Source: Candidatus Peribacter sp. (lineage in GTDB: Bacteria; Patescibacteriota; Gracilibacteria; Peribacterales; Peribacteraceae). Taken from it: a stretch of DNA of 64,000 bases. Where the stretch lies: the NCBI GenBank assembly GCA_030647195.1, contig JAUSKD010000045.1, positions 19,849-83,848 of the forward strand, written 5' to 3'. Below, piece by piece: positions 458 through 32,348 of the stretch. Numbering within the stretch: position 1 is the first letter of the stretch; every line of letters begins with the position of its first letter. Both the position numbers and the translations under genes were made by a program. The notes below the pieces were generated by a model. It saw only the letters and a program-made list of their open reading frames with translations, searched no databases and was not told the DNA's origin.

Positions 458-3400
458 CTACTCTCCAATCGTCACAAGCTTTCCTGCGGTCTGTCCGAAG
501 ACCTCGGGGAAGTACATTTCAAACACGTGAGCCGGGCGTTCGTGGAAGGTGCCCGGTGTCGTCGCGCGCACGAGGTAGGTCAGCTGGTACACGCCGGTCG
601 GAAGCTCATCAGCGAAGGCGAAGAACATGTCGTCCCTGAGTTCCCGGTGGTTGAACCGCCACAGCCCGCTCTGCCAGTAGTTCTCATCCCACATGCGTGT
701 CGTGTCGTCCGACAGCAGCGTCTTCTGCGCCGTTTGCAGGTTGACGTCGATTGGCTCGAAACCGGCCGGGAAGGGGCTCTCGATGGCCACGAAGTGACGG
801 TCCTCGGGCACGGTGATCGTGAGGGTCACGCGGTAGGTATTGCCCACGGTGGGCGTCTTCTTCTGACCCGCCCGGCCGTTGGCCGGATCGGACGGGTCGG
901 GGAGCGGCTCGGTCGTTCTCAGTACGCTGATGCCCTCCTCTGCGGGCGGCAGGGTATCGGCCGTGTAGAAGTACGAGAGCACTGCGTCGTAGTACAGACG
1001 GCCCGTGCCTTCTTTGCCGATTTTGAGCGTTGTCGTCTCGCCTCTGACGAGCTCATCCAGCGCCAGCTTCACTTCTTTGCGCGAGAGCACGTTTTGCTTC
1101 GTGACCTTCCAGTCGAGGATCTTCGTTCCGTTCACGTCCACCCCTGCGGTGAAGTTGGCATCGAGTTCCTTCGTCTGCTGCAGGTAATCGATGAAGGCGA
1201 GGAGCACCGAGACCGTGGACTGCGTCGTATCCCAGTGTCCGTCCTTGCGGATTTGGAGCAGGTAGCGCACGGCATTGGGAATCAGGGCGTTCTTCGGATC
1301 GATACGAAGCATGGCCTGCAGCACGAGCGCGGACGTGCGGTCATTGGTGTGCATGAGAGAGCCGTACGTGCCGATGTCCTCTTCTTCAAAGTGCGTGCCC
1401 CGGCCGTCCACTTTCGCGGACCGCAGGATTTCCGTCACGATGTCGCGCGCCTTGCCTTTGGACTTTGCCCGGTCGAAGGCCATGGCCAATTGCGCCTTGG
1501 CGAAGAGCGGGAGCTTGGCGCGCTGCTCATCCAAGTTACTGAGCAGGCTCACGTCCACATTGCCCGTTTCCGCGAGGGCGAACAGGATCTGCGCGCGGGT
1601 GGCGGCATCCAGTTGCTCATTGGGATCGGATCTGCGCAAAGCAGCGTCGAGGTACTGCCGCGTACGGGCGATCACGCCGTCATCCACGGCAAAGCCGCTG
1701 TCACGGATGAGGGAAAGCGCCTGGAGGGCGTAGGCGCTGAGGGCGGCGTAACTCCGGTTGCTCTCCTGCCAGTAGCCGAATCCTCCGTCGCCGCGCTGGA
1801 AGGTGTAGAGGCGCGTGAGTCCCGTCGTGACCATGTCGTCGAGCTTCTTTTTGTCGACGATGTGGAAGGCATCGAAGCCCTGCAGGCGCAGGAGGACGAC
1901 GTCGGGCAGGATGCTTGAGATGGTCTGTTCCGCACAGCCGTAGGGGTAACTCGCAAGGTACTGGAGCCCGCCGGGCAGGTAAGTGGCGAGGGTTGGAGAA
2001 ACGGTCACCGACAGCGATCCATCGCGCGCATCCTTCTCGGAGGGCACGAGCACCTTCTCCGTGGTTACGTCTTCGGTGATGCCCGTGGTCGCCGCGCTCT
2101 GCGGCGTCCCGTAGGTCAGGATAGGTATGGATTCCTCTACTTCATCGCGTGCGGTTTCGCTCTTTGCGAGGAACGTGAAGGTCGCTTTGCTTGCCCGGGC
2201 GATCGTCACAGGGAATTCCACCTTCGTCTGTTCCCCGGCGCCGATCGTCACCTGTTTGCTCTGTTGCCCGCCCAGGGCGAATCCGCTCCCTGTCAGCGAA
2301 ACGGTAAAGGTGGAAGAGCTCTCGAGGAAATTATGAACAATCGCACCCAGGATCACGCGGTCACCGACGACCGCAAAGCGCGGCCGCACGGGACGCACGA
2401 TCACGTGCTTCGTCTCGATTACGGTGTCTTCCGCCGCGCCGAACGTGGAGGAGAGCGTCTGTCCGATGGCGAGCAGGTGCCAGGTGGTGAGGTTATCCGG
2501 CAGTGTGAACGAGACTTCCGCCTCGCCATTTTCATTCGTGAGGATGGTTGGGTTCCAGTAGGCAGTATCCTTGAAGTTGCCGCGTTTCTTCGCTTCCAGA
2601 TCCGCTCCACCTCCGCCCTTGGATCCGGGCTTGTAGCGGTCGATGAGGAAGGTGAGCATCTCCGCGGTCAGCACCCCCACGGGTCGTTCGCTGTAGAACT
2701 GCGCTACGAGGTCGGGCAACGAAAAGCCGGTCAGCGCGAGCACGCTCATATCCACGACTCCCAGCGATATCTCCGCGCGTGCGGGTTTCCCCTGCCAGTC
2801 TGAGGCAGAGAGCTTCACCGTGACCTTCTCGCCGGGGAGGTACTTCTCCTTGTCCGTCTTGACGTTCACCGTGAGGCGCTTGCTGGTGGTATCGATGGGG
2901 AGCTTGGCGTAGCCGATGCGGAAGGCGGGAGCGCCCGTGTCGAGGCCGTTATCGTTGAATGTCTCGCCGATGCGGGGTTTGATGACGACGACTGAGACGT
3001 AGGCGGTGGGCAGCAAATCCCCGGTGATGGGAACGGTGATCTTCTGTGCCGTCGATTCAATGGTGATCACCTCGCGGTGGATGACCTGTTCGCGCTCCAC
3101 GGTGACGAGGGCCTTCACGTTTTTACCCTGGAAAGGCGATTTGATGAGCAGCGTGGCCGTGTCGCCGATATGGTATTCAGCCTTGTCGGGCACGACATCA
3201 ATGCGATTGTTGTTCTCGTGCGGCCAGTTCACATAGGTACTGGACCAGGCGTACAGGCCTGTTGCGGCTTTGGCCTCGCGCCCCTGATCATCTGCCACCA
3301 CGGCAACGACGCGGAATTCACCACCCTGATCGGGACGGACCATGGTCTTTACCTTTCCCTTCTCATCGGTGGTGACTTTCGTCGCGCGGACGAAGGTATC

Positions 3401-6400
3401 TTCCGGCGTGTTGTCGTAGTAGTACTGTCCATCCACCCCTTTCTTTTTGATGGTGTTCCACTTGCGGCTATAGAGATTCACAGTGACGTTCGTATTCGGC
3501 AGTGCGGAACCATCAGGTTTGACGGTGATCACGCCGATCGCGGCATCCGCGCCGGGCGTCACGACGTAGTCCAGCGTCTTGACCCCCACGTAGGCGTTGG
3601 CCTTGTGAACGGGCACCGACACGCGGTTACTCACCACCTGATTATTCGGGTCCGTAATGTCCGCTTCGATGGTGAGGATCTGGCTCACGGGCTTATCGTC
3701 GATCTTTGCAGGAACGGAGACCTGCAGCCTTCCTGCGGCATCCAACTGTCCCTCGCCCTCCGCGAGGAGCTTTGTCTCGCGCTCGCAGTTCTGCCAGCAC
3801 CATGCGTCTTCGAGACCGAAGGAATACCAGTCATCCTGCACTTTGTTGAAGAAGTAATCCGTGGTCTGCGCCCGCCACGTAACCTTGGCCCCGCCCATGG
3901 GCGCGCCGAAGTAGTAGGCTCCGGCGATAGTCGCCTGCACCGTGTCATCCTGAAAGTAGTCTTCCCGCTCTGTCGTCAGGTCCACGCGGTATTCCGGCTT
4001 GCGGTAGGCGAGGACATCGAACGATCCGTAGGCGTCCCCGTACGGGCTCTCCTGGAAACCTGCGGAAATCTGGTACGAGCCGAGGGGAGCCTTGGCGTCA
4101 ATGGGCAGATCCCCCGCGAAGCTGCCGTAGGCTGAGAGTTTCAGGGATTTGTTGAAGATTTCATTCCCGTTGCTGTCCCGGACCATGACGGTCACGGCGC
4201 GGCTCGTCGCGGGGATCGCAAGCACGCCGTTGCGGTTGCGCGTCCGCAGGATGCCCTTGAAGTGCACGGTATCACCCGCGCGGTAGATCGGCCGGTCCGT
4301 GTAGAGGGTCGAGTGGATGCGCTCGCCGCGATCGGAAGGATTCCAGAAATCGGTGTAGAAGCCGAACATGTCCGGCCGAATGCCGTCACTCCACCGGCTC
4401 GACACGAATGCGAAATCATCCCCCTTTTTCGCGGTAACCCAGAATTCCGGTTCCCATTCGTTCATCGAAGTAGCGAAGCGGTTCATATCGATATCCGTTT
4501 CAAAGAACCCCTCTTGATCCGTCTTGCCCGTCACGATGCCCTCCCCGTTGAGCGCGTTGAATGCGATGTGGGCGCCGGCCACGCCTTCACCCGACCGCAA
4601 ATCCGTTGCCCAGACGAGTGCACGGTTGCCCGAGTACTTGAGTGTGAGCGTGGTATTGGTGAGGGCGAAGATCTGGGAGAATTGCAGCTCTTTGCCGTCG
4701 TACCCTTTCTCGTTGGGGGCGCGCACACGCAGGACGAAAAGCCCGGAGGGGAGGGTCTGTTTCGCCTCCTCAACCATGTCGAGAGGATGGATATCCCACG
4801 TGTTTTTTGTCGCCGGTGGCATGTAGGTCCACGATTGCAGGGGGGTGAGGTTGGCCGGCAGAGCGTCCCACGTCTGATGTGTATCACGGAAGACGAGGAA
4901 ATCTGCGAGACTTACGGATGAGAGCTCCGCTTCCACTTTCGTGATATTCACGGTCTTCATGCGGTACACCGGAGGCTTCGCGCGCTCGAAGATGCCGAAT
5001 TCGCCTTTCGTTTCGAGCAGGAGCTGCGGGTCTAAAGGCGGTGTCTTGAACGAGAATGTGACTGGCTCCTTCAGTGATTGTCCGAAGGTGTCTTTGATGC
5101 CCGTACTCACTGTGATCGTGTACTGCGTCGAGGGATTGAGCGGCGGGTAGGCCGAGAGCTCACGATTGTCCTGCCACGAGGCGAGCTGCCATTCCGTTTC
5201 ATTCCATTTCGGCACGTCCGGCGTGATCGTGATCTGATTCTTGATGGAATCCTCCGAGAGTGGATTGCTGAATTGAAAGAGCACGCGGCCATACTCGTAG
5301 TTGGACTTTGCGATCGTCAGCGCCCCCACGGTCGAAAAATTCAGGATGAATCCCGTTCCGTTGCCGAGGGTGCCTTTTGCCCCGGTGATGCCCGGTGCGA
5401 CGGCGAGCGCATACGTCGAAGAGAAGGCGAGCGGCTTGGCAGGTGTGATGACGAGCGTTTTGCGGTCCGTGACGGTGCGCTTGTCCACTGCGACCGTGCC
5501 GAAGGCGACTGAGCGGATCTCCAACTCTTCCGGCGCGCCGTTTTCCCCCTCGCGTGTGAGCGAGAGGAAAGCTTTGGCGCTGCCCGTATCCATCTCCTGA
5601 TTGAAGGTGAGGGAGGGGAGCGTCGTCGGGCCGGCGAGTGAGAAGCCCTCGGCGGGATCGGTGGTCTCCACCTGCGGTCGCGCTGTTTCGAACGTCCACG
5701 AAAAATCCTCTTCCGTCTTGTCCCCCGAAACGGTCTCTATGCCTTTGGGAATAGAGACGGTGTAGCGGGTACTCGGTAGCAGCCCCTTCTCCGGAATGAA
5801 TTCCACGGCCACCGTCGAGAGCCACCGCCACCGTCCTGCCGTATCGGGCGAGATCGTTACCGGCCAGTGTGCCAGGCGGGCCTGCGCCGCTTCGCCCTGC
5901 ACCTGCGTGAGGGGGATCATGGGCCGGTCGAAGATGATGGTGATCTTGGAGGTTTCCGCGACGTGCTGCGCGCCCACCTCGGGGATGCGGCCAGCGATCA
6001 AGGGCGGACCGGCGACGGTGAACGTGAAATCCAGATCCTGCCCCAAGCCGCTGCCATCCGATTTCTTGGCAGTGCGGTCGAGGTGGAAAACGATGGTTTT
6101 TCCGGCGGGCAGTGGAGAAGTCGGACTGAACGTGAGCGTCTCATCTGTCCAGTCAAACGTTCCCGTAATGCTCTCCGGCAGCGTCATACTCTCTTCCACG
6201 CTCTTGTGGTCCATGAGTGCAGGGAAACTGAATTGCAATGTTGAAGCGGCCGAAACCCTCTGCCGCAGCGCGAAATCCATCGTGGTCTGGCGGCTTGGAA
6301 AGCGCACGGTTCCCGTTGCGAAGAGGGCGATCAGCGTGATGAAGACGACCAGCACTGTCGCAAGCGCGATGGGTCGCCGGCTGACGGTTGCGGTCACGGA

Positions 6401-6424
6401 TGAGAGGCGACTGGAGGAGGACAT
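458..6424 (-). CDS. Alpha-2-macroglobulin family protein, membrane-anchored, with thioester motif
   Basis: 1988 aa; N-terminal TM; Ig-like/MG domains; PYGCAEQ thioester motif; directly upstream of pbpC, as in the known yfhM-pbpC arrangement. Confidence 0.92.
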   Translation of the reverse strand: MSSSSRLSSVTATVSRRPIALATVLVVFITLIALFATGTVRFPSRQTTMDFALRQRVSAASTLQFSFPALMDHKSVEESMTLPESITGTFDWTDETLTFSPTSPLPAGKTIVFHLDRTAKKSDGSGLGQDLDFTFTVAGPPLIAGRIPEVGAQHVAETSKITIIFDRPMIPLTQVQGEAAQARLAHWPVTISPDTAGRWRWLSTVAVEFIPEKGLLPSTRYTVSIPKGIETVSGDKTEEDFSWTFETARPQVETTDPAEGFSLAGPTTLPSLTFNQEMDTGSAKAFLSLTREGENGAPEELEIRSVAFGTVAVDKRTVTDRKTLVITPAKPLAFSSTYALAVAPGITGAKGTLGNGTGFILNFSTVGALTIAKSNYEYGRVLFQFSNPLSEDSIKNQITITPDVPKWNETEWQLASWQDNRELSAYPPLNPSTQYTITVSTGIKDTFGQSLKEPVTFSFKTPPLDPQLLLETKGEFGIFERAKPPVYRMKTVNITKVEAELSSVSLADFLVFRDTHQTWDALPANLTPLQSWTYMPPATKNTWDIHPLDMVEEAKQTLPSGLFVLRVRAPNEKGYDGKELQFSQIFALTNTTLTLKYSGNRALVWATDLRSGEGVAGAHIAFNALNGEGIVTGKTDQEGFFETDIDMNRFATSMNEWEPEFWVTAKKGDDFAFVSSRWSDGIRPDMFGFYTDFWNPSDRGERIHSTLYTDRPIYRAGDTVHFKGILRTRNRNGVLAIPATSRAVTVMVRDSNGNEIFNKSLKLSAYGSFAGDLPIDAKAPLGSYQISAGFQESPYGDAYGSFDVLAYRKPEYRVDLTTEREDYFQDDTVQATIAGAYYFGAPMGGAKVTWRAQTTDYFFNKVQDDWYSFGLEDAWCWQNCERETKLLAEGEGQLDAAGRLQVSVPAKIDDKPVSQILTIEADITDPNNQVVSNRVSVPVHKANAYVGVKTLDYVVTPGADAAIGVITVKPDGSALPNTNVTVNLYSRKWNTIKKKGVDGQYYYDNTPEDTFVRATKVTTDEKGKVKTMVRPDQGGEFRVVAVVADDQGREAKAATGLYAWSSTYVNWPHENNNRIDVVPDKAEYHIGDTATLLIKSPFQGKNVKALVTVEREQVIHREVITIESTAQKITVPITGDLLPTAYVSVVVIKPRIGETFNDNGLDTGAPAFRIGYAKLPIDTTSKRLTVNVKTDKEKYLPGEKVTVKLSASDWQGKPARAEISLGVVDMSVLALTGFSLPDLVAQFYSERPVGVLTAEMLTFLIDRYKPGSKGGGGADLEAKKRGNFKDTAYWNPTILTNENGEAEVSFTLPDNLTTWHLLAIGQTLSSTFGAAEDTVIETKHVIVRPVRPRFAVVGDRVILGAIVHNFLESSSTFTVSLTGSGFALGGQQSKQVTIGAGEQTKVEFPVTIARASKATFTFLAKSETARDEVEESIPILTYGTPQSAATTGITEDVTTEKVLVPSEKDARDGSLSVTVSPTLATYLPGGLQYLASYPYGCAEQTISSILPDVVLLRLQGFDAFHIVDKKKLDDMVTTGLTRLYTFQRGDGGFGYWQESNRSYAALSAYALQALSLIRDSGFAVDDGVIARTRQYLDAALRRSDPNEQLDAATRAQILFALAETGNVDVSLLSNLDEQRAKLPLFAKAQLAMAFDRAKSKGKARDIVTEILRSAKVDGRGTHFEEEDIGTYGSLMHTNDRTSALVLQAMLRIDPKNALIPNAVRYLLQIRKDGHWDTTQSTVSVLLAFIDYLQQTKELDANFTAGVDVNGTKILDWKVTKQNVLSRKEVKLALDELVRGETTTLKIGKEGTGRLYYDAVLSYFYTADTLPPAEEGISVLRTTEPLPDPSDPANGRAGQKKTPTVGNTYRVTLTITVPEDRHFVAIESPFPAGFEPIDVNLQTAQKTLLSDDTTRMWDENYWQSGLWRFNHRELRDDMFFAFADELPTGVYQLTYLVRATTPGTFHERPAHVFEMYFPEVFGQTAGKLVTIGE

Positions 6425-7622: not shown

Positions 7623-9569
7623 CTATTGCCCGCGTATCTGCCGCAGCGCCGCGCGTGCCTGCGCATTGCCCGGATCGTACGCAAGAATCGCTTCGAACTG
7701 GGCGGCCGCACCATTGCGATCTTTCTGCGTGTTAAAGAGCAGGATGCCCAGGTTCAGCCGCGCTGCGGTGAATTTCGGCTGCAGTCGCACCGCCTCGCGG
7801 TAGGCCTCTTCTGCCTCATCGCTGCGGCCGAGCTTCGTCAGCGCAACGCCCAAATTGTAGTGCGCCTGCGGAAAGAACGGATTCAGGTCGAGGGCTGCGC
7901 GGTATGCGGTCACGCCTTCTTCCAGCCGCCCCAGGCCGACCAGCAGCGCTCCCAAATTGAGCTGCGCCGGAGCGAAATCGGGAGCGGACAGAATCGCCTG
8001 TCGGTAATACCGTTCCGCAGTGACGTTGTTTCCCTGCTGTCCGGCAACGACGCCCAGTCCCAGAAGCGCGTAGACGTTTTGGGGGTTGAAGCGCAGCGCC
8101 TCTTCGTAGGTCGACCGGGCTTGGGCGAAGTCATTCTGTTCCCTCAGCGCGGAGGCCAGATTGCTCAGCGTCTTCGATTTGGAGCGGTTCAGTCCCGGTC
8201 CTGTGCGGCCCTTCTCGCGCATGATCGTCAGGGCGGTGTTGTACGAGGCAATGGCCTTCGCTTCATCCCCGCTGTAGCGCTGCACATTCCCCAGATTCAC
8301 ATGGGCCACGTAAGCATCGGGCGAGACCTTCAATGCCTGGGTGAACAGTGCCGTGCTGTCCTTCCATGTGCGCGACTGAAGAGCCGAGAGCACGCCCAGA
8401 GCCGCAAGCAGAAAACAGGCGGCGATGATGCAGGGTCTGGTCCGCGCACGGCAGAAATGTCCGAATGCCAGAATGATGAGGAAGAAGATGCCGATGCTCG
8501 GCACATAGGCGTAGCGGTCGGAGGCGAAGTAGAAGAAATCGCCCTTGGCGAAATTGAGCAGGGTGGGGGAGACGGTGATGAGGAAGAAAGCGATCCCGAA
8601 GAACACGTCCCTGGTCCACCGCAGTGACACCAGCGTGATCAGCAGGAGGAGGATGAAGAGCAGCAGGGGGATCAGGATGTCTGAGCGCGAGAGGGTGACG
8701 GGTCCCACGAAGGGATAGAGCACCGAAAGCCCGGACGGAGCGAAGATTTTTTCGAGGTAGAACATCATGCTCCTGGGGGCCATCAGCAGTTTCTCCGTCG
8801 GGCTGGATGCAGTCAGGACGCCCGTTTTGCCCATCCACGCGATCACGCCGAAGATTCCTGACAGTGCGAGGTAGGGGAGTTTCTCGCGGAGCATCCTGCG
8901 GTCCCACGCGCGGCGCTCATGGATGTCAAAGACGAAGAGGAGAACGGGCAGGGTGATCACGGTCACCTTGGCCAGCAAGCCCAGGGAGAATGCCGCGAGG
9001 CTTGCGTAGTACGTTTTGCTTTTCCCGTCAGAGCGGTATTGCAAATACGCAATCAGGCTCAGGAGGAGGAAGAACGTCGAGAGCACATCCTTTCGCGCGC
9101 TCGCCCACGCCACGGCTTCGGTGTGGAGCGGATGCAGTGCGAACAGAAGCCCCCCGAAGAGCGCTGTCCATCCCCGCCACGGTCGGTCCTGACCGCTGTG
9201 CCCCCGCCGCGTGAGCGTGAGCAGGAGCCACGCGACGAGCAGGGCATTCAGCGTGTGCCAGAGGAGGTTCTGGATGTGATAGATCGTGGCATTGGTCCCG
9301 CCGAGCAGGTAGTCGATCTGATAGCTGAAGAAGGTGAGCGGGATGTAGAGCTCGGGGTCGTAACTCGTGAAAATCGTCTTGAGTGAACCGGGTGTGATGG
9401 AGCGGATGGACGGGTTTTCGTAGATGAGCAGGCCGTCATCCCAGCGCACGAAGGTGTGGGTCAGCGAACTTCCGTAGACGAAGAACGTCGCGAGAAAAAA
9501 TGCACAGACGATCCACCAGAGCACGGGGCGGGACGGCAGGGAAGGGGACGAAGGATGGTCGGCGTTCAC
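7623..9569 (-). CDS. Multi-TM glycosyltransferase-like protein with C-terminal TPR repeats (TMTC/PMT-like architecture)
   Basis: N-terminal half has many hydrophobic segments and WDDGLLIYENPSI near the N-terminus; C-terminal TPRs such as AHYNLGVALTKLGRSDEAEEAYREAVRLQPKF. Confidence 0.75.
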   Translation of the reverse strand: MNADHPSSPSLPSRPVLWWIVCAFFLATFFVYGSSLTHTFVRWDDGLLIYENPSIRSITPGSLKTIFTSYDPELYIPLTFFSYQIDYLLGGTNATIYHIQNLLWHTLNALLVAWLLLTLTRRGHSGQDRPWRGWTALFGGLLFALHPLHTEAVAWASARKDVLSTFFLLLSLIAYLQYRSDGKSKTYYASLAAFSLGLLAKVTVITLPVLLFVFDIHERRAWDRRMLREKLPYLALSGIFGVIAWMGKTGVLTASSPTEKLLMAPRSMMFYLEKIFAPSGLSVLYPFVGPVTLSRSDILIPLLLFILLLLITLVSLRWTRDVFFGIAFFLITVSPTLLNFAKGDFFYFASDRYAYVPSIGIFFLIILAFGHFCRARTRPCIIAACFLLAALGVLSALQSRTWKDSTALFTQALKVSPDAYVAHVNLGNVQRYSGDEAKAIASYNTALTIMREKGRTGPGLNRSKSKTLSNLASALREQNDFAQARSTYEEALRFNPQNVYALLGLGVVAGQQGNNVTAERYYRQAILSAPDFAPAQLNLGALLVGLGRLEEGVTAYRAALDLNPFFPQAHYNLGVALTKLGRSDEAEEAYREAVRLQPKFTAARLNLGILLFNTQKDRNGAAAQFEAILAYDPGNAQARAALRQIRGQ

Positions 9570-9630: not shown

Positions 9631-10701
9631 TTATTCAATGTATGCCCTCTTGAGCAGATTGCGCGTCACGAAGAAGAGCAGCGCAAATGCTCCCATGATC
9701 GTAATCCAGAGCGCGGGTCCCGTTGCGGGTTGCGCAATGGGCAGCGGAGCGCCGCCGTGCAGGGTGGTCTTGGCCCCCTTCACGCTCTTCACGGACGAAG
9801 AGCTGCCTCCTGCGGTGATGGGTTTGCCCTGTGCGTCGAAAGGATGTGCGCGATTGCCGTTGACGGTGTACGGATTGACGGGCAGCTGTACGACGCGATC
9901 GGGTTCACGGCGGCTGTCTGAGGAGGCGGCACCCGAAGGCACGGAATTCCGCGCTCCGGCAGCAGGATACGCAGCATCGGCATCACCATTGCCCGCGAGC
10001 ACGGAAGCGATATCCACGAATCCGTCTGCGTCGGCAGGAGGCAGAGCGAATGCCAGGTTGCCTGTCCTGGAGAAGAGGGATGAAGATTGTCCCGCTCCGG
10101 CGGAGGAGGTGGCGCTGTGCGTTGCACTGTCGAAGGGAACTGTCTGCGCGAGGTTCTGCCTGGTCGCAGTGTTGACGGCAGCGGTCGGCGTTCCCGCCTT
10201 GGCTGCCAGCACCGTGATGCTGGCCTCCATGCCCTGTGCGTTGATGCTGTAGTAGGAATAAGTGCCGGCATCGAACTCAGGCGTGATGGTCAGTGTTGCG
10301 CTCTCTTTCGGCGCGATGGAGTGCGTGGAAAAGCATTCCTGATTGTGCGTGCAGAGCGCATCGGATTGCAGCACCTGCGGACGGTCGGTTTCATTGATCC
10401 AGCGGATGTCTCCTCCGGTGGTAACGGTGACGGAAGTCGGAGAGAAGCCGTTCTCGGTGATCCGAACCGTGGTCTCGGTGCCCTGATCAAATCCGAAGAA
10501 GAGCGAAAAGCCGATCGAGATGGCAAGCAGCATGCCTGCGATGGCAGCCGGTTGCCGTGACAGGCGTCGCATGCGCGGCTGGTGAGCTTGCTCTGCGGGA
10601 GGCTCCTGACTCTGTTTCGGTCTCTCCGCGACGTGCACGGGGAGTAGTTGCTCCTCCGCGGACGCATCGGTGGACTGCCAGTTGGGATGAAGATCGGTCA
10701 T
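9631..10701 (-). CDS. Cupredoxin-like domain surface protein with TM segments and C-terminal sorting-signal-like tail
   Basis: TTVRITENGFSPTSVTVTTGGDIRWINETDRPQVLQSD...GTYSYYSINAQGMEASITVL resembles plastocyanin-like repeats; C-terminus QPATGPALWITIMGAFALLFFVTRNLLKR. Confidence 0.7.
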   Translation of the reverse strand: MTDLHPNWQSTDASAEEQLLPVHVAERPKQSQEPPAEQAHQPRMRRLSRQPAAIAGMLLAISIGFSLFFGFDQGTETTVRITENGFSPTSVTVTTGGDIRWINETDRPQVLQSDALCTHNQECFSTHSIAPKESATLTITPEFDAGTYSYYSINAQGMEASITVLAAKAGTPTAAVNTATRQNLAQTVPFDSATHSATSSAGAGQSSSLFSRTGNLAFALPPADADGFVDIASVLAGNGDADAAYPAAGARNSVPSGAASSDSRREPDRVVQLPVNPYTVNGNRAHPFDAQGKPITAGGSSSSVKSVKGAKTTLHGGAPLPIAQPATGPALWITIMGAFALLFFVTRNLLKRAYIE

Positions 10702-12380
10702 GATGCGCGTGGAGTGTGGGTCAGGGCCACGATCTGTCTGCGAGAGGCGAGGGCGGTGCCGGTAATCGCCGAGATGGTGAGGATCAGGGTGACCACCGAA
10801 GACATGCCCGTCTCTCCGGGAACGGTGATCAATGTTTTGGTGGCCAGCAGGTCTCCCGTGAGGGGGGCAGTGGACGTCTTGGGATTCCCCACTTCGACTG
10901 CGACCTCCTGGCTGAAGGCGGATTCCTCATCCTGTGCGCTCAAGGCCCGAATGGCGACGAAGTACGTAGTCTTCTCGGGCAGGCCGCGGATGGCCATGCT
11001 TGTCGAGTCGCCCGAGATCGTCTTTCGCTGGATGTAGCGTCCGGTGGTCGTTCCGTAGTAGAGGTTGTAGGCCTTCAATTGGGAGGAGGTGAGCGGGTCC
11101 CAGGCGATGTACAGGCTGGTTCCTTCTGTCGTGATCCGCACGTTGCGCACCTGCAGCAGCGCGAAGGCGGTCCCGCTCGTGGGCGGCATGGCTGTTGGCG
11201 CAGAGGAAGATGCAACTGCCTTTGCACAGCGGTTGCTTTCGCAGATGCCGCTCATACAGTGGCTGCCTGCGGTGCACGCGCCTCCGTCTTCCACTTTCAG
11301 GATATCGCCGCGGCACACGCCTCCGCTGCAGAGTCCTCCCTTACAGTCGCCGTGCTCGCTGCAACTCATGCCATCGGGCAGCAGGGTCCGGGAGGTGGCG
11401 GAACTGGCGGAGGAGCCGGAACCGGTCGGGGCACTGGAGCTCGATTGCACTTCGGTTGTGCAGGCGATGGAACAGCCGTCGCCCGCGAGGAAGTTTCCGT
11501 CGTCACACTGTTCGCCGGCTTCCACGAGGCCGTTGCCACAAATGGGAGCTGCAACGGAAGAGGCGCTGCTCATTGTTGAAGAAATTGCGGAACTGCCGCT
11601 CCCTGCGGGATGCGTTGTGGCACTGCTCGTACTGGAACCGCTGCCGGATGCCTGCGAGACGGAGCTCGATCCGGATCCGGTGCTGGCGGCCGAGCTTGCG
11701 ACGGAGCCACTGTCGCTCGAGAGCGACGTGGCGGAGGAGGCGGAAGAGGCCGCGGGAGTTTCGAAGGTGACGAGCAGTGAACCGGGATTCTGGGTGAGAA
11801 TATCCTCCGTGCCGCCGGCATCCTTCACGGCGACGACGCGGGTGTGTCCCGTGGGTTGCACATCGTAGAAGCTGAGCACATCCGTTTTGGTTTGAGGTAC
11901 GGATTTCACCTGCAGGAGGACGCGAGCCACGAGGATTTCCTCGGTGGCAGGTTCTGCGGCGGCTGTTGCCGAGAGATCAATCTTGATGAGTCCGTCTGTT
12001 GCAGAAAATTCCAGCTCTCCCGGGGCGGGGGTGGAAAGTACGGCTCCGGCGGTGACCCCTTTCCCTTCCAGGACCGCAGAGTTGTACTGCAGCCATGCAC
12101 GCACACGGCTGATCTTTCTCTTTCCGGGATTGGTGAGCATCAGATCCATATGGAGCTGATCATCTTTCTTCTGCGGGGCGGTCTGGAGCGTTTCGGGGTC
12201 TTTCACGGTATACGTCGGGCAGGGGGTGGTGCCCTCTGCACAATGGGGTCGCAGAAAGAGTGTCGGCTCGGTTGTTCCCTCTGCCATGAACCCTGCCGGG
12301 ATCAGTAGAACCAATGCCAGCAGGGGGAGCAGAAGGATTCTGGCGACGGTCAGCCGACGGGGAGTGGCGGATGTGGTCAT
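10698..12380 (-). CDS. Cohesin-like domain / Ser-rich linker / DUF4215-type Cys repeat / fibronectin III protein with C-terminal TM
   Basis: Signal-like N-terminus; LHMDLMLTNPGKRKISRVRAWLQYNSAVLEGKGV... cohesin-like; CGNGLVEAGEQCDDGNFLAGDGCS; FN3-like segment; PGETG+TM+RR tail. Start overlaps the end of nothing upstream; its stop overlaps the next gene's ATG by 4 nt. Confidence 0.72.
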   Translation of the reverse strand: MTTSATPRRLTVARILLLPLLALVLLIPAGFMAEGTTEPTLFLRPHCAEGTTPCPTYTVKDPETLQTAPQKKDDQLHMDLMLTNPGKRKISRVRAWLQYNSAVLEGKGVTAGAVLSTPAPGELEFSATDGLIKIDLSATAAAEPATEEILVARVLLQVKSVPQTKTDVLSFYDVQPTGHTRVVAVKDAGGTEDILTQNPGSLLVTFETPAASSASSATSLSSDSGSVASSAASTGSGSSSVSQASGSGSSTSSATTHPAGSGSSAISSTMSSASSVAAPICGNGLVEAGEQCDDGNFLAGDGCSIACTTEVQSSSSAPTGSGSSASSATSRTLLPDGMSCSEHGDCKGGLCSGGVCRGDILKVEDGGACTAGSHCMSGICESNRCAKAVASSSAPTAMPPTSGTAFALLQVRNVRITTEGTSLYIAWDPLTSSQLKAYNLYYGTTTGRYIQRKTISGDSTSMAIRGLPEKTTYFVAIRALSAQDEESAFSQEVAVEVGNPKTSTAPLTGDLLATKTLITVPGETGMSSVVTLILTISAITGTALASRRQIVALTHTPRAS

Positions 12381-12401
12381 AGGGTGGAAGAACCAACGAA
12401 G

Positions 12402-12722
12402 TTACGGCAGGGTGCGCAGGATCCGCAGAGCGTCATCAATCGTGAACGAGCCATCCCCATTGGGGTCGGCCTTGAGCTGGTCGGGGGTCGCTTGCGCGTA
12501 CCCCTGCACCACCTCGAGAATTTGAATGACGTCCTGCACATCCACTCCGCCGTCTCCGGTCAGGTCACCACTTTGGCTCACGGAACCGGCTTCAATGAGT
12601 GCGATGGGCTGCACTTCACCGGCGCTTTGAATGCCGATGAGGAAGGAGGCCGCAACGCAGATCCCACTGAAGAAGAGGGCCCGCAAGAACTGCCGTGAAC
12701 GGTATGTAATGTGCATTTCCAA
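12402..12722 (-). CDS. Dockerin type I-like small secreted/membrane protein
   Basis: Duplicated Ca-binding loops: GDLTGDGGVDVQDVIQILEVV and ADPNGDGSFTIDDALRILRTL; N-terminal hydrophobic segment. Confidence 0.8.
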   Translation of the reverse strand: MEMHITYRSRQFLRALFFSGICVAASFLIGIQSAGEVQPIALIEAGSVSQSGDLTGDGGVDVQDVIQILEVVQGYAQATPDQLKADPNGDGSFTIDDALRILRTLP

Positions 12723-12882
12723 ACATTATAGAATATTTCGGGTTTTCCCTCCAGTGCGGGGAAGTTGACTTGAGATACCGATCAGTATATTTCATCTAAG
12801 TGCATGTTGGTGTTCTACAACCTGATTATGATCTGTAAAGTATCGGAATAGACGCTTCGTGCGTACACTCAAGGCTCCTTTC

Positions 12883-18479: not shown

Positions 18480-19322
18480 ATGCGCTCTGCAACACTTCCG
18501 CTCCTCCTCTGTGTCCTTCTGCCGTCACTCGTTTTTGCGGGCTCTTTGGATGATGTCGTGGATGATGCAGGATCGTTCACGGGTGTGCTGCAGCAGATGC
18601 AGGAGGAACAGGCTGCGCAGTCCGCCGATCAGCTGCGGGAATCGGGCAGCGAAATTTTTCCGTCGACCGGGCAGGGAAGTTCCTCCAGTCGTCCTTCCGG
18701 GCTGGACGAAGATCCGACATTTCTCACTGCGCGCGTGGACGGCGTTCCGGTGATCTTCGGGGATGTGCCGAAAGTCGCATGGTTCGCGCCGTACGTGCGC
18801 TCTGTGACGGAGCAGGGGATCGTCTCGGGGTATCGCGAAGCGGACGGAACATTGAAGGGTCTCTTCGGTCCCGCCGATTCGCTGACGATCGAGCAGCTGG
18901 CAAAGATCGCCGTGCAGGTGGCGCGGGTGGATCTCGCATCGTGCGGCTCAGCCCTCAAGAATGCGACGGTGCAGGGGAGCTGGTCGGAAGGGTACATTCG
19001 CTGCACCGAACAGCGCGGGTGGGCGGTCTATGCAGATGGATCGGTGGATGCCCTTCGGCTCGCTCGTCGTGCGGAAGTCGTGGCGACACTCCTGCAGGCG
19101 CTGGGAGTGAAGATCGAACAGAGGACGGGCGGCGTCTTTACCGATGTCGACAGTTCCGTTGAATTCGCCGCGGCGATCGAGATGGCGGCGAAGGCGGGCG
19201 TGGTCGCCGGGGATACCGATGCCCAGGGGAATGCAACGGGTGCTTTCCGTCCCGTGGATCCCGTGAACCGTGCGGAGGTCGCAAAAATCGTCACGATGGC
19301 GCTGCAGGTGTACGGGCAGTAG
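18480..19322 (+). CDS. S-layer homology (SLH) domain protein, secreted
   Basis: Signal peptide; FGDVPKVAWFAPYVRSVTEQGIVSGYREADGTLKGLFGPADSLTIEQLAKI and two further SLH-like segments. Confidence 0.85.
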   Translation: MRSATLPLLLCVLLPSLVFAGSLDDVVDDAGSFTGVLQQMQEEQAAQSADQLRESGSEIFPSTGQGSSSSRPSGLDEDPTFLTARVDGVPVIFGDVPKVAWFAPYVRSVTEQGIVSGYREADGTLKGLFGPADSLTIEQLAKIAVQVARVDLASCGSALKNATVQGSWSEGYIRCTEQRGWAVYADGSVDALRLARRAEVVATLLQALGVKIEQRTGGVFTDVDSSVEFAAAIEMAAKAGVVAGDTDAQGNATGAFRPVDPVNRAEVAKIVTMALQVYGQ

Positions 19323-20471: not shown

Positions 20472-22316
20472 TCATTTGCAATTGGAGGGGCATCCGCGCG
20501 GTGTTCCATTTTCCGGCCCTGCATCGCAGCGTTCCCACGATTCCCGGATGCCATTGCCGCACGCGCGGAACGCCAAGGAAGGCCGAGGAACAAGACCGGC
20601 ATTGATATCATCGAATCCATTTTGATTGCGAGGCACGATATCCATGCTGAATGTCTCAATGCTCGAGCGTCTCTGCGGAGGGACTGTGAGCACGAGGGAT
20701 CCAATTGCTGATTCATCCGCTGCGTTCCACGGCAGTTCGCATGAGAATTCATTCATCATGACTTGATAGGCCGTGTCTTGATTGCACCGCATGGTATTGC
20801 CCACCCCAAGGCCGTACTCTTTCGACGGAAGTGAGATTCTGATATTCACTTTCTGGGGCACAAATTCGCTGAGTGACATTTTGTAGACGAATACTTCCAT
20901 GGCGACCGTCGTCAATTGTTCCCCGCGCAGGACTCTCTGGACGTCCGGTCCGCTTATGCCCATAGCCAGTTTTAATTCCGTATTGCACATAAATCCGCAC
21001 CCATCGCGACCCGTCCGGTTCCCGTCGTCGCAGGATTCGCCAAGATGCGCATCGATCCTGCCGTTGCCGCATGCGTAGAACGTTACGCCTGCGCGATTGG
21101 ATGTGATTTCATTGGTAAATCCCTCTTGAGTATAGGGAATTTCTGCAAGCACTATCTCCGCCGTACTTTCCCGCTCCGGCGGAACCGTGAGGGTGATAGG
21201 AGCCGACAGCGACCCGCTTGGGGCGACAGATGGCAGAATGCACGAGAATTCCTTCGCCGAAACCTGATCGCACCGCAACGGGTCCTCCACCCTGAGCGTG
21301 TACCGGATCGACGGAAGCGTGATCTTGATGCGCACGCTTGGAGCGACGTATGTTCCCGCATTCATGACAACCAGGTTCATAGAAACATCCGTCAGGTTTT
21401 CCCCCCGCCTGACTCGTTCGACGTCCTCTCCCGTAAACCGTGGCTGCAATCGAGTAATGATCCTGCAGCTGTAGCACCCGTCACCAGCCGTCAGATTCCC
21501 ATCATCGCAGCTTTCTCTCCCCTCCACGATGCCATTTCCGCAGACGGCAGCGCGGCAGATATTCAGACAGCTATCCGTATCGATGACATTCCCGTCATCG
21601 CACGTTTCCGTTCCCTCCACGATGCCATTGCCGCATGTAGCTGCGAATGCGGCGGAACTGACTGCGCTTGAGAAGGCGGAAGACGAGCTCATCGTCGATG
21701 ATGCGCTGGATGAGACGGCTGTCGAGGATGATTGTGCTTCAGACGAAGACGCTGACGAAAGGGAAGACGAAGATGATGCAGAAGACAGGGAACTGGACGG
21801 AGAGGAGGCCGCGCTGGAGAGGGAGGAGGATGAGCTTGCTGGCGAGCATGTTCTAAAGACAGTGATGAACTGACTGTTGTTCTGGATATTCCTGTCCTGC
21901 GACGCGATCACGGTGGTGTACAGCTTCTGCGCCTTCTGACAGGGAGCGTTCGGTGTCAGTGTGACGGTGAACGTCAGTACCCGGCGGGCGCCTTTTTCAA
22001 GATTGCCGAGTGAGCACGCCCAATGGCGGGTACCGCTCGCTATGCACTCTGCAGGGGGTGTGACGACGGTGAATGTGGAGAGTGATGTCAGAACCAGTGT
22101 GACGCTGCGCGCGGCAGTCGTTCCGTTGTTGCTCACTTGGATGTTCGAGGTGAATGCATTGAGCGCCGCGTTGTAACGGGTCAGTGCAAAGACAGACACG
22201 TCCGTTGCGCTGCTCACCTGCGCGGTGAAGCGCACCGTTCCGAGTTGGATATGCGCGAAAGCGGCAACGGCGAGGAACAATGCAAGGAGAAATGTTCTGC
22301 GCGAGGGGTTTTTCAT
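20472..22316 (-). CDS. Secreted surface protein with repeat-like beta domains, Ser-rich linker and DUF4215-type Cys repeats
   Basis: MKNPSRRTFLLALFLAVAAFA signal; poly-Ser linker; CGNGIVEGTETCDDGN, CGNGIVEGRESCDDGN, CGNGRIDAHLGESCDDGN. Track start at 22427 is likely too early. Confidence 0.8.
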   Translation of the reverse strand: MKNPSRRTFLLALFLAVAAFAHIQLGTVRFTAQVSSATDVSVFALTRYNAALNAFTSNIQVSNNGTTAARSVTLVLTSLSTFTVVTPPAECIASGTRHWACSLGNLEKGARRVLTFTVTLTPNAPCQKAQKLYTTVIASQDRNIQNNSQFITVFRTCSPASSSSSLSSAASSPSSSLSSASSSSSLSSASSSEAQSSSTAVSSSASSTMSSSSAFSSAVSSAAFAATCGNGIVEGTETCDDGNVIDTDSCLNICRAAVCGNGIVEGRESCDDGNLTAGDGCYSCRIITRLQPRFTGEDVERVRRGENLTDVSMNLVVMNAGTYVAPSVRIKITLPSIRYTLRVEDPLRCDQVSAKEFSCILPSVAPSGSLSAPITLTVPPERESTAEIVLAEIPYTQEGFTNEITSNRAGVTFYACGNGRIDAHLGESCDDGNRTGRDGCGFMCNTELKLAMGISGPDVQRVLRGEQLTTVAMEVFVYKMSLSEFVPQKVNIRISLPSKEYGLGVGNTMRCNQDTAYQVMMNEFSCELPWNAADESAIGSLVLTVPPQRRSSIETFSMDIVPRNQNGFDDINAGLVPRPSLAFRACGNGIRESWERCDAGPENGTPRGCPSNCK

Positions 22317-22441
22317 AGTGAATGATGGAATGTGTGTAATACGTATATTATACAATAGTTCTGGAAATTGCGCTACATAGGAAAAGTGCCGATGACACTG
22401 GTTTCCGACGTTCTCTTCGTTATGCAATTAGGGATGGCTAG

Positions 22442-22609: not shown

Positions 22610-22712
22610 AGGGGGGAGGGAAAGTGAGGAAAGGCAGAAAGGCAAGGAACGTAAGGAAGGAAAAGAAATCTTCCTGCCTTTCCTGCCCTTTCTCACCTTC
22701 CTCACTTTATAT
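22610..22712. repeat. Low-complexity intergenic inverted repeat
   Basis: Purine-rich arm AAAGTGAGGAAAGGCAGAAAGGCAAGGAACG... matched imperfectly by CTTCCTGCCTTTCCTGCCCTTTCTCACCTTCCTCACTTT. Confidence 0.55.
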
Positions 22713-23930
22713 TGGCAGCATTTCCATTTTGTACTTCGGCTGTTCGCGCACGGGTTGCTGCCCCACGGCGAGCGGCTCGCCCGTCTCGGGATCCACTTCC
22801 TCGGATAAGACAATCAGGCGTCGTAAGGTCGTTCCCACGGGAGTGCAGGTCATGAGCGTGCTCAGCCTCCGGTCTCCCGGTTGATCGAGCACGTCCACAT
22901 TGGAGGGTTTCACTTCGTTGATCGAGCGGACAACGTAGCGGTGCTTGTCGCCGCCGTAGTACACCCAGTAGTCGTCTCCCTCCGAGAGCATATGGAGCCG
23001 GGCGAAGACCGTTTTGAAGTTTCCCGGGGCCCACGGGTAGTAGGAGCTGTGTCCGGTCACGAAGAAATTGCCTGCCTGTCCGGGTTTTGCCGTACCCGGG
23101 TAGTGCACCACGCCTTTTTCGAGGGAGAGCTGGATGTCGTTTTCCACCTGCGTCCAGTCTTCGCGAAGCAACGCTTCGTACGGGGGGATGACGATCGGGA
23201 CATTCAGGTTCAGCTTGGGGACGATCAACCGATTCTCCGGTGGCCCGACAGGAGGGAGGAAGCTCAAGAGACTGCCGTCATCCTGGCTGCCGGCGGTCGT
23301 GAGCATCGGGGATTTCAGCAGTTTCTCGCGAAGTTCGGCAGTCGTACCCGCACCCAGACCTGTCTCCGAACGGATTTCCTGCAGGGGGTCCAAGTTCGGC
23401 ACAATGATCTGCCAGAAACTCTGGTAATTGAGCGAGACAAACAGCGCGACGAAGAGGGCTGCGAACGTTCCGCCAAAACGGACGGTATCGATCAGGAAGA
23501 GCGTGACTCTGCTGTAACGCTTGGGCTCGCGCCTGGGTCTGACCACCCAAACAGGCTGGACGAGGAACGCCCAAAAGTGCTGAGCCGCCGCTCCCAATCC
23601 CCGGTAGGCACGCTGCGAGACTGTTCTGCACCCCTCCGCACTCTGACGGTACTGACGCACGCTCTCCTGCAGCAATTCATTGGCGTTGGATGAAGCCTGC
23701 GAAGGCAGTGAAACGCACGTGGATCGCAACCAGGGAACCCACGACGGCATTACATACTTTTTCTTTTCGGGCAGGGCTCTTTCAATCCTTCGTTCCACAG
23801 TTTTTTGCGGCGCCGGGGCGGGGGCTTCCTGAGCGGTGGGAAGAGAGTCATCCACCGGCAGAATGATATTCCCCTGTGCATCGTAGAGGGCTTCGTGCTG
23901 CCGATGCTGGCGTCGATCGAGCGGTATCAT
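22707..23930 (-). CDS. Sortase (class D/E-like) with long N-terminal region and TM
   Basis: TGHSSYYPWAPGNFKTVFARL...RRLSTLMTCTPVGTTLRRLIVLSEEV: catalytic His, Cys (TLxTC) and Arg context. Confidence 0.88.
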   Translation of the reverse strand: MIPLDRRQHRQHEALYDAQGNIILPVDDSLPTAQEAPAPAPQKTVERRIERALPEKKKYVMPSWVPWLRSTCVSLPSQASSNANELLQESVRQYRQSAEGCRTVSQRAYRGLGAAAQHFWAFLVQPVWVVRPRREPKRYSRVTLFLIDTVRFGGTFAALFVALFVSLNYQSFWQIIVPNLDPLQEIRSETGLGAGTTAELREKLLKSPMLTTAGSQDDGSLLSFLPPVGPPENRLIVPKLNLNVPIVIPPYEALLREDWTQVENDIQLSLEKGVVHYPGTAKPGQAGNFFVTGHSSYYPWAPGNFKTVFARLHMLSEGDDYWVYYGGDKHRYVVRSINEVKPSNVDVLDQPGDRRLSTLMTCTPVGTTLRRLIVLSEEVDPETGEPLAVGQQPVREQPKYKMEMLPI

Positions 23931-31760: not shown

Positions 31761-32348
31761 TTATTTTATTTGCACGTGTCTGTAGATCACTTCGGCCACT
31801 TCCTCCAGTGATCCGGAGGTATCGATGACGCGGATCAGAGGATCTTCCGCCGCGAGGAGCTTGTAGGCGTCGTAGACCTTGTGCTGGAGCTCCGTGCGTT
31901 CCAGTGCATCCGTCTGATCGCGCCGGGTCATGCGTTCCTGCAGGACTGCGAAGGGCGGGAGCAGGAAGAATGTTTCGTCAGGTCGAATAAATTTTTTGTT
32001 CATCTCGTCCAGTTGCGCCCGCGAAATGCCGAGGGCAAAACCGTAGGCGATGGTCGAGTGAAAGTAGCGGTCCGAAATCACCGTTGTCCCCCGGGCGAGT
32101 GCCGGTTCGATCACCTGCTCAAGGTGCCACGTGCGGTCTGCGCAAAACCGGCTCTGTAGATCGAAGGGCGAGAAGGATTTTCCCGCGCGCAAGTCGCTGC
32201 GGATAGCCGATCCGATGGGTCCGTCGGTGGGCTCGAACGTGCACAGGACGGGGAGTTTTTCGCGGGCCAGGCGGTCTCCGAGCAGCTTCACATGCTTGGT
32301 TGTTCCCGCTCCGTCGGGTCCTTCGAGGACAATGAATTTTCCGCGCAT
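31761..32348 (-). CDS. tmk: Thymidylate kinase
   Basis: KFIVLEGPDGAGTTKHVKLL P-loop; ISDRYFHSTIAYG. Confidence 0.92.
   Translation of the reverse strand: MRGKFIVLEGPDGAGTTKHVKLLGDRLAREKLPVLCTFEPTDGPIGSAIRSDLRAGKSFSPFDLQSRFCADRTWHLEQVIEPALARGTTVISDRYFHSTIAYGFALGISRAQLDEMNKKFIRPDETFFLLPPFAVLQERMTRRDQTDALERTELQHKVYDAYKLLAAEDPLIRVIDTSGSLEEVAEVIYRHVQIK

Follow-up and report, generated by a model that had tools for sequence, protein, structure and literature searches.

The question raised by this locus is what a dockerin and a cohesin encoded side by side, with a cupredoxin-like protein next to them, may be used for by a member of the Peribacteraceae, which are ultra-small, uncultivated bacteria (Patescibacteria). 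Cohesin-dockerin pairs outside cellulosomes are known, and their purpose is mostly unclear. The window, i.e., the whole stretch of 64,000 nucleotides that was analysed, belongs to a genome of 1.35 Mb that is 98.6% complete. The initial annotation had described three genes on the same strand at 9631-12722 as a possible minimal non-cellulosomal assembly, which might attach a copper or redox protein at the cell surface. The three open reading frames, named here DOC, COH, and CUPR, were confirmed on the minus strand at the positions given in that annotation, and are listed below with their promoter and domains.

12725..12753, minus strand: operon promoter, with the -35 TGGAGG at 12748-12753, a 17-nt spacer, and the -10 TATAAT at 12725-12730.
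12402..12716, minus strand: DOC, a 104-aa exported dockerin protein starting at ATG 12716 (basis: Pfam Dockerin_1, PDB profile match, and the census of the Ca2+ loops).
10698..12380, minus strand: COH, 560 aa (basis: Pfam, and orthologs in 35/35 family genomes).
11760..12269, minus strand: modelled cohesin domain of COH, aa 38-207 (basis: scaffoldin cohesin profile and structure model).
10890..11183, minus strand: FN3 domain of COH (basis: alignment of 35 genomes and likeness to fibronectin FN3).
10701..10823, minus strand: C-terminal sorting-like tail of COH, VPGETG, a hydrophobic stretch, and SRRQ (basis: permissive motif pattern, 35/35 tails).
9631..10701, minus strand: CUPR, 356 aa, with an N-terminal transmembrane helix, a cupredoxin-fold domain, a linker, and a tail.
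10204..10482, minus strand: domain of CUPR modelled as a cupredoxin fold, in which the type 1 copper site is missing (basis: plastocyanin profile, model, Foldseek, and ligand census).

The signal and membrane segments of the three proteins were identified by eye. DOC begins with a hydrophobic stretch, a signal or an anchor, with a plausible S/T-A-G cleavage site after it; a short linker and one type I-like dockerin follow, and there is no cargo domain. COH is made up of a signal peptide, the cohesin, a Ser-rich linker with a DUF4215 Cys repeat, the FN3 domain, and a C-terminal anchor tail, while CUPR has some 50 N-terminal residues before its transmembrane helix, followed by the cupredoxin fold, a low-complexity linker, and a tail of QPATGP, hydrophobic, and basic segments. 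The tails of both COH (PGETG) and CUPR thus share the three parts of motif, hydrophobic stretch, and basic end, with motifs that are not the canonical LPXTG. A related G-x-T-G-like motif was found under a permissive pattern in the COH tails of all 35 genomes, being loose in several of them, and the window genome encodes four sortases over the cut-off.

The three genes appear to form one transcriptional unit. The overlap of 4 nt between COH and CUPR (10698-10701), which the initial annotation took as a sign of coupling, is real and recurs as exactly 4 nt in 14 of the 31 orthologs measured, and the spacing between DOC and COH is mostly 1-35 nt in the orthologs with reliable starts. Upstream of DOC, a sigma-70-like promoter is present in 33/33 orthologs (the window and 32 relatives), with a -10 of TATAAT, TATACT, or TACAAT, a spacer of 17 nt in 31/33, and a -35 resembling TTGAGA. 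In some genomes, the window included, this -35 is weak (3/6 matches), which is why a generic promoter scan missed the window promoter. The same box was found upstream of COH in 0/34 cases and upstream of CUPR in 1/31, and its presence before DOC with almost none before the other two genes is the pattern expected of a single operon. The gap from the -10 to the DOC ATG is 8 nt in 29/33 orthologs and 6 or 10 nt in the rest, and transcription is predicted to begin about 2 nt ahead of the ATG, near 12718, so that the operon mRNA is predicted from these signals to be near-leaderless. Given this, TTG 12722 was rejected as the start of DOC in favour of ATG 12716, because the conserved -10 would let transcription begin only past that TTG. 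Farther upstream, a GTCAA element conserved in 24/33 orthologs reads TTGAC on the opposite strand and may, tentatively, be the -35 of a divergent holA promoter. Elsewhere in the window, the thymidylate kinase gene at 31761-32348 (minus strand) has a TATACT that ends 8 nt before its first ATG, possibly giving a second near-leaderless transcript.

The order of the trio, whose conservation had been proposed as a check, is held across the family. In 35 genomes from 31 genera, the arrangement carB-greA-u140-holA (divergent)-DOC-COH-CUPR is kept, barring contig ends and small local changes, and COH is present in 35/35 genomes, DOC in 34/35, and CUPR in 35/35, two of the CUPR copies being cut by contig ends. 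The exception for DOC is G023, in which COH is present and no DOC lies between holA and COH. Since the trio is conserved across 31 genera, it is more than a chance arrangement. It is a feature of the family with relatives in the class, rather than of the phylum as a whole: the family cohesin profile hits 37/380 Patescibacteria genomes, 16 of them from the Peribacteraceae, and the hits outside the class are weak. Dockerins occur in 149/380 of these genomes, and in three genomes farther away in the phylum a cohesin and a dockerin are encoded no more than about 1.2 kb apart.

The gene directly downstream of CUPR (7623-9569, minus strand) encodes a membrane protein with PMT_2-like and TPR parts, whose architecture resembles that of the TMTC-type O-mannosyltransferases. 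It was rejected as a fourth core member of the operon, given that it directly follows CUPR only in the genus of the window and in G020. Other envelope genes around the operon encode an SLH-domain protein (18480-19322), a Cys-rich DUF11/DUF4215 protein (20472-22427), a sortase (22707-23930), and a bacterial alpha-2-macroglobulin (458-6424).

The assignment of DOC to the dockerins rests on its profile and on its calcium loops. Pfam Dockerin_1 matched DOC at E=1.1e-4 with 22.7 bits against a curated cut-off of 22.9, and with 23.8 bits, above the cut-off, in the genome search, and the DOC profile matches solved PDB dockerins and EF-hands. The two loops expected from the initial reading of the gene, DLTGDGGVDVQD and DPNGDGSFTIDD in the window, are both intact in 32 of the 33 aligned orthologs (loop 1 in 33/33, loop 2 in 32/33), with an invariant Asp at positions 1 and 12 of each loop. 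This census was made without G031, whose DOC falls outside the alignment and has lost loop 1.

For COH, the Pfam Cohesin match in the window lies below the curated cut-off (E=2.4e-4, 21.8 bits, cut-off 24.1), and the same family is above the cut-off in 28/58 relative genomes, many of these matches being at the orthologous place. The COH cohesin profile matches scaffoldin cohesins at E 7e-4, and the structure model of the domain is mostly at pLDDT above 80-90, although the alignment is shallow. When this model was searched with Foldseek, the 50 best PDB matches were all cohesins (best E 5.6e-8), the Archaeoglobus fulgidus cohesin among them. As modelled, the N-terminal domain of COH is a cohesin beta-sandwich, as the initial annotation had anticipated. 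Pfam also identified DUF4215 (1.2e-7) and fn3 (6.8e-9) in COH, and the FN3 domain, which resembles that of fibronectin, is the most conserved part of the protein, with a mean column identity of 65% over 35 genomes. It is plausible that this domain is the adhesive face of COH.

A classical cellulosome is excluded because only a single cohesin and a single dockerin in the genome are credible. The cohesin is COH, which adjoins DOC, further matches being weak, and the dockerin is the 104-aa DOC itself, which carries no catalytic subunit, further matches again being weak and none passing at E 0.01. The earlier view that this is not a classical cellulosome thus stands, and its remark that no glycoside hydrolase is nearby agrees with the Pfam scan of those neighbour genes covered. 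No cellulose-binding domain was matched in DOC, COH, or CUPR.

We consider it fairly likely that the three-gene unit encodes a small, constitutive, Ca2+-dependent, surface-anchored envelope complex of a non-cellulosomal kind, in which DOC would clasp COH and CUPR would be a structural partner. Under this model, the three genes would be transcribed as one unit, and COH, once exported, would stay at the surface through its C-terminal sorting or anchor tail, displaying the cohesin and, on the far side of the Ser-rich linker, the highly conserved FN3 domain. The cargo-free DOC would be exported as well, would fold on two Ca2+ ions, and would bind the COH cohesin 1:1 as a dedicated clasp. This clasp might fasten COH to the membrane, with the N-terminus of DOC left uncleaved, or it might cap COH and make it stiffer. 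CUPR, a third structural partner, would be held by its N-terminal transmembrane helix, and it bears a sorting-like tail of its own; its cupredoxin fold, lacking a type 1 copper site, would serve as a beta-sandwich module. Both the anchoring mode and a structural or adhesive, rather than catalytic, role of the complex are what we infer. The sorting-like tails with the sortases of the genome, and the giant surface proteins with terminal dockerins that adjoin COH-FN3 homologs in related families, also speak for this complex. In this form, the minimal non-cellulosomal assembly first suggested for the locus retains a conserved operon and a modelled cohesin fold, and loses its copper or redox cargo.

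On the other hand, COH may be a docking port for large surface proteins that bear dockerins, with DOC acting only as a plug, competitor, or chaperone until it is exchanged. Extra dockerin proteins do occur in some family genomes (G004, G008, G010, G015, G029, and G031) and could be real partners of COH, and in related families giant proteins with terminal dockerins adjoin the COH-FN3 homolog. However, neither the window genome nor most of the family genomes have another dockerin that passes E 0.01, so such a port would usually be without any other client, and we regard this reading as unlikely. The G029 genome is a case of its own, with eight dockerin matches, several of them on large proteins, which is a marked expansion relative to its relatives.

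The related families show what such giants look like. At loci L129-L134, from other families of the class, COH-FN3 homologs have as neighbours cohesin lipoproteins, a bitopic protein that is CUPR-like and has TGP in its tail but no cupredoxin match, and surface proteins of very large size, some with a dockerin at their end. The giants at L130, L131, L132, and L134 (G042, G035, G053, and G048, respectively) are about 1100-2500 aa long and stand beside the cohesin lipoproteins and the COH-FN3 homologs, and some of them carry a dockerin at the C-terminus. In the L131 giant, the N-terminus gave a weak cohesin-like match as well, which makes a head-to-tail polymerisation conceivable. The trio of the Peribacteraceae may be a stripped-down form of this class arrangement, or the giants may be an elaboration.

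One other possibility, which we hold to be somewhat more improbable than the port, is that there is no binding between DOC and COH, DOC being an independent small Ca2+-binding protein of the envelope and the cohesin binding a glycan or another protein, with the two genes lying together because of shared regulation. Since DOC and COH are in the same frame, the TAA between them could be read as a residue, and the resulting single chain was modelled together with relatives. In this fused model (pTM 0.57, shallow alignment), the cohesin folded well, DOC was mostly at pLDDT below 50, and no interface between the two was resolved, which is compatible with the absence of binding, as is the presence of COH without DOC in G023. 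Against this, the pair is adjacent and near-exclusive over 31 genera, its domains are those of the two partners in a known binding pair, and coevolution is stronger between DOC and COH than between DOC and the housekeeping neighbours. In partial correlations of distances over 22 genomes, a small sample, DOC reached 0.54 with COH, 0.39 with CUPR, and 0.08-0.13 with four housekeeping neighbours, some control pairs for which no interaction is expected also being high (CUPR-holA 0.56, holA-carB 0.56, COH-carB 0.40). Given the copy number, the adjacency over 31 genera, and this correlation of distances, DOC probably grips the cohesin of COH, in keeping with the clasped envelope complex proposed above.

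The third gene was initially read as a cupredoxin-like anchored protein, and this description holds for the fold and, as read by eye, for the transmembrane helix. Pfam Cupredoxin_1 matched CUPR at E=5e-4, just under the curated cut-off, the plastocyanin profile matched the domain at E 6.5e-11, and the model (pLDDT 90.7) was matched by Foldseek to plastocyanin at E 1.5e-8. By profile and model, the domain has a cupredoxin/plastocyanin fold. It is thus alike in fold and in sequence profile to the cupredoxins of the plastocyanin/amicyanin type, and it differs from them in that the ligands of the type 1 copper site have been lost family-wide. In 32/32 aligned orthologs, Ser, Asn, or Thr stands in place of the Cys ligand, the second ligand His is essentially absent across these 32, and the first ligand His is retained in 20/32, the window protein having Gln in its place; the CUPR of G017 lacks the cupredoxin domain. 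A copper or redox role of CUPR was rejected on this census, and the idea of a redox cargo fails because the copper ligands are lost in the orthologs. That the dockerin-cohesin pair attaches CUPR as a copper protein at the cell surface is therefore highly improbable, despite the homology to plastocyanin and the first His of 20 orthologs, given also that the CUPR-like proteins of the related families have no cupredoxin match and that CUPR needs no clasp for its attachment, having a membrane helix of its own and no dockerin.

Comparison with known systems shows which parts of the proposed clasp complex are familiar. The pair shares with the cellulosomal type I cohesin-dockerin pairs (e.g., PDB 1g1k, 4ums, 5lxv) the cohesin fold, the two F-hand Ca2+ loops, the secretion signals, and the surface display. 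It differs from them in having a lone cohesin where those have a scaffoldin with several, a dockerin protein without enzyme or cargo, and a single pair in the genome. The same modules occur outside classical cellulosomes in Archaeoglobus fulgidus (2xdh), in ANME archaea (PMC9012536), and in Cloacimonadota (PMC8542988), and the archaeal and bacterial gene sets described in these reports (PMC9012536, PMC8542988) are variable or carry enzymes, whereas in the Peribacteraceae a single operon, whose dockerin is free of cargo, is conserved in synteny family-wide. In Southlakia epibionticum, a saccharibacterium and thus also of the Patescibacteria, Tn-seq found the envelope proteins SEML1_0315, with a dockerin domain, and SEML1_0890, with an FN3 domain, to be essential (PMC10633639), and these may be likened to DOC and COH by domain description only. 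A report on Peribacteria genomes stresses large exported proteins and sortase and mentions neither dockerin nor cohesin (PMC4736985), and no published description of the DOC-COH-CUPR operon was found in the literature searched. Non-cellulosomal cohesin-dockerin pairs are thus already known, and what sets the present locus apart is the combination of a cargo-free dockerin and a single cohesin as a family-conserved operon.

In the Peribacteraceae, the molecular clasp of the cellulosome looks to have been given a new use as an integral component of the cell surface. The trio has been kept across 31 genera whose genomes measure only 0.7-1.4 Mb, and this points to an important function in the envelope. 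The dockerin of about 75 residues and the cohesin domain of about 170 residues offer a small expressible system for the function of such pairs outside cellulose degradation. More tentatively, the cohesin-dockerin pair may, in Patescibacteria, be a core and vertically inherited part of the envelope, a 1:1 Ca2+ clasp that would link membrane and wall and present an FN3 adhesin, with no role in the breakdown of polysaccharides. The operon provides candidate surface proteins for the building of the patescibacterial envelope or for attachment to a host.
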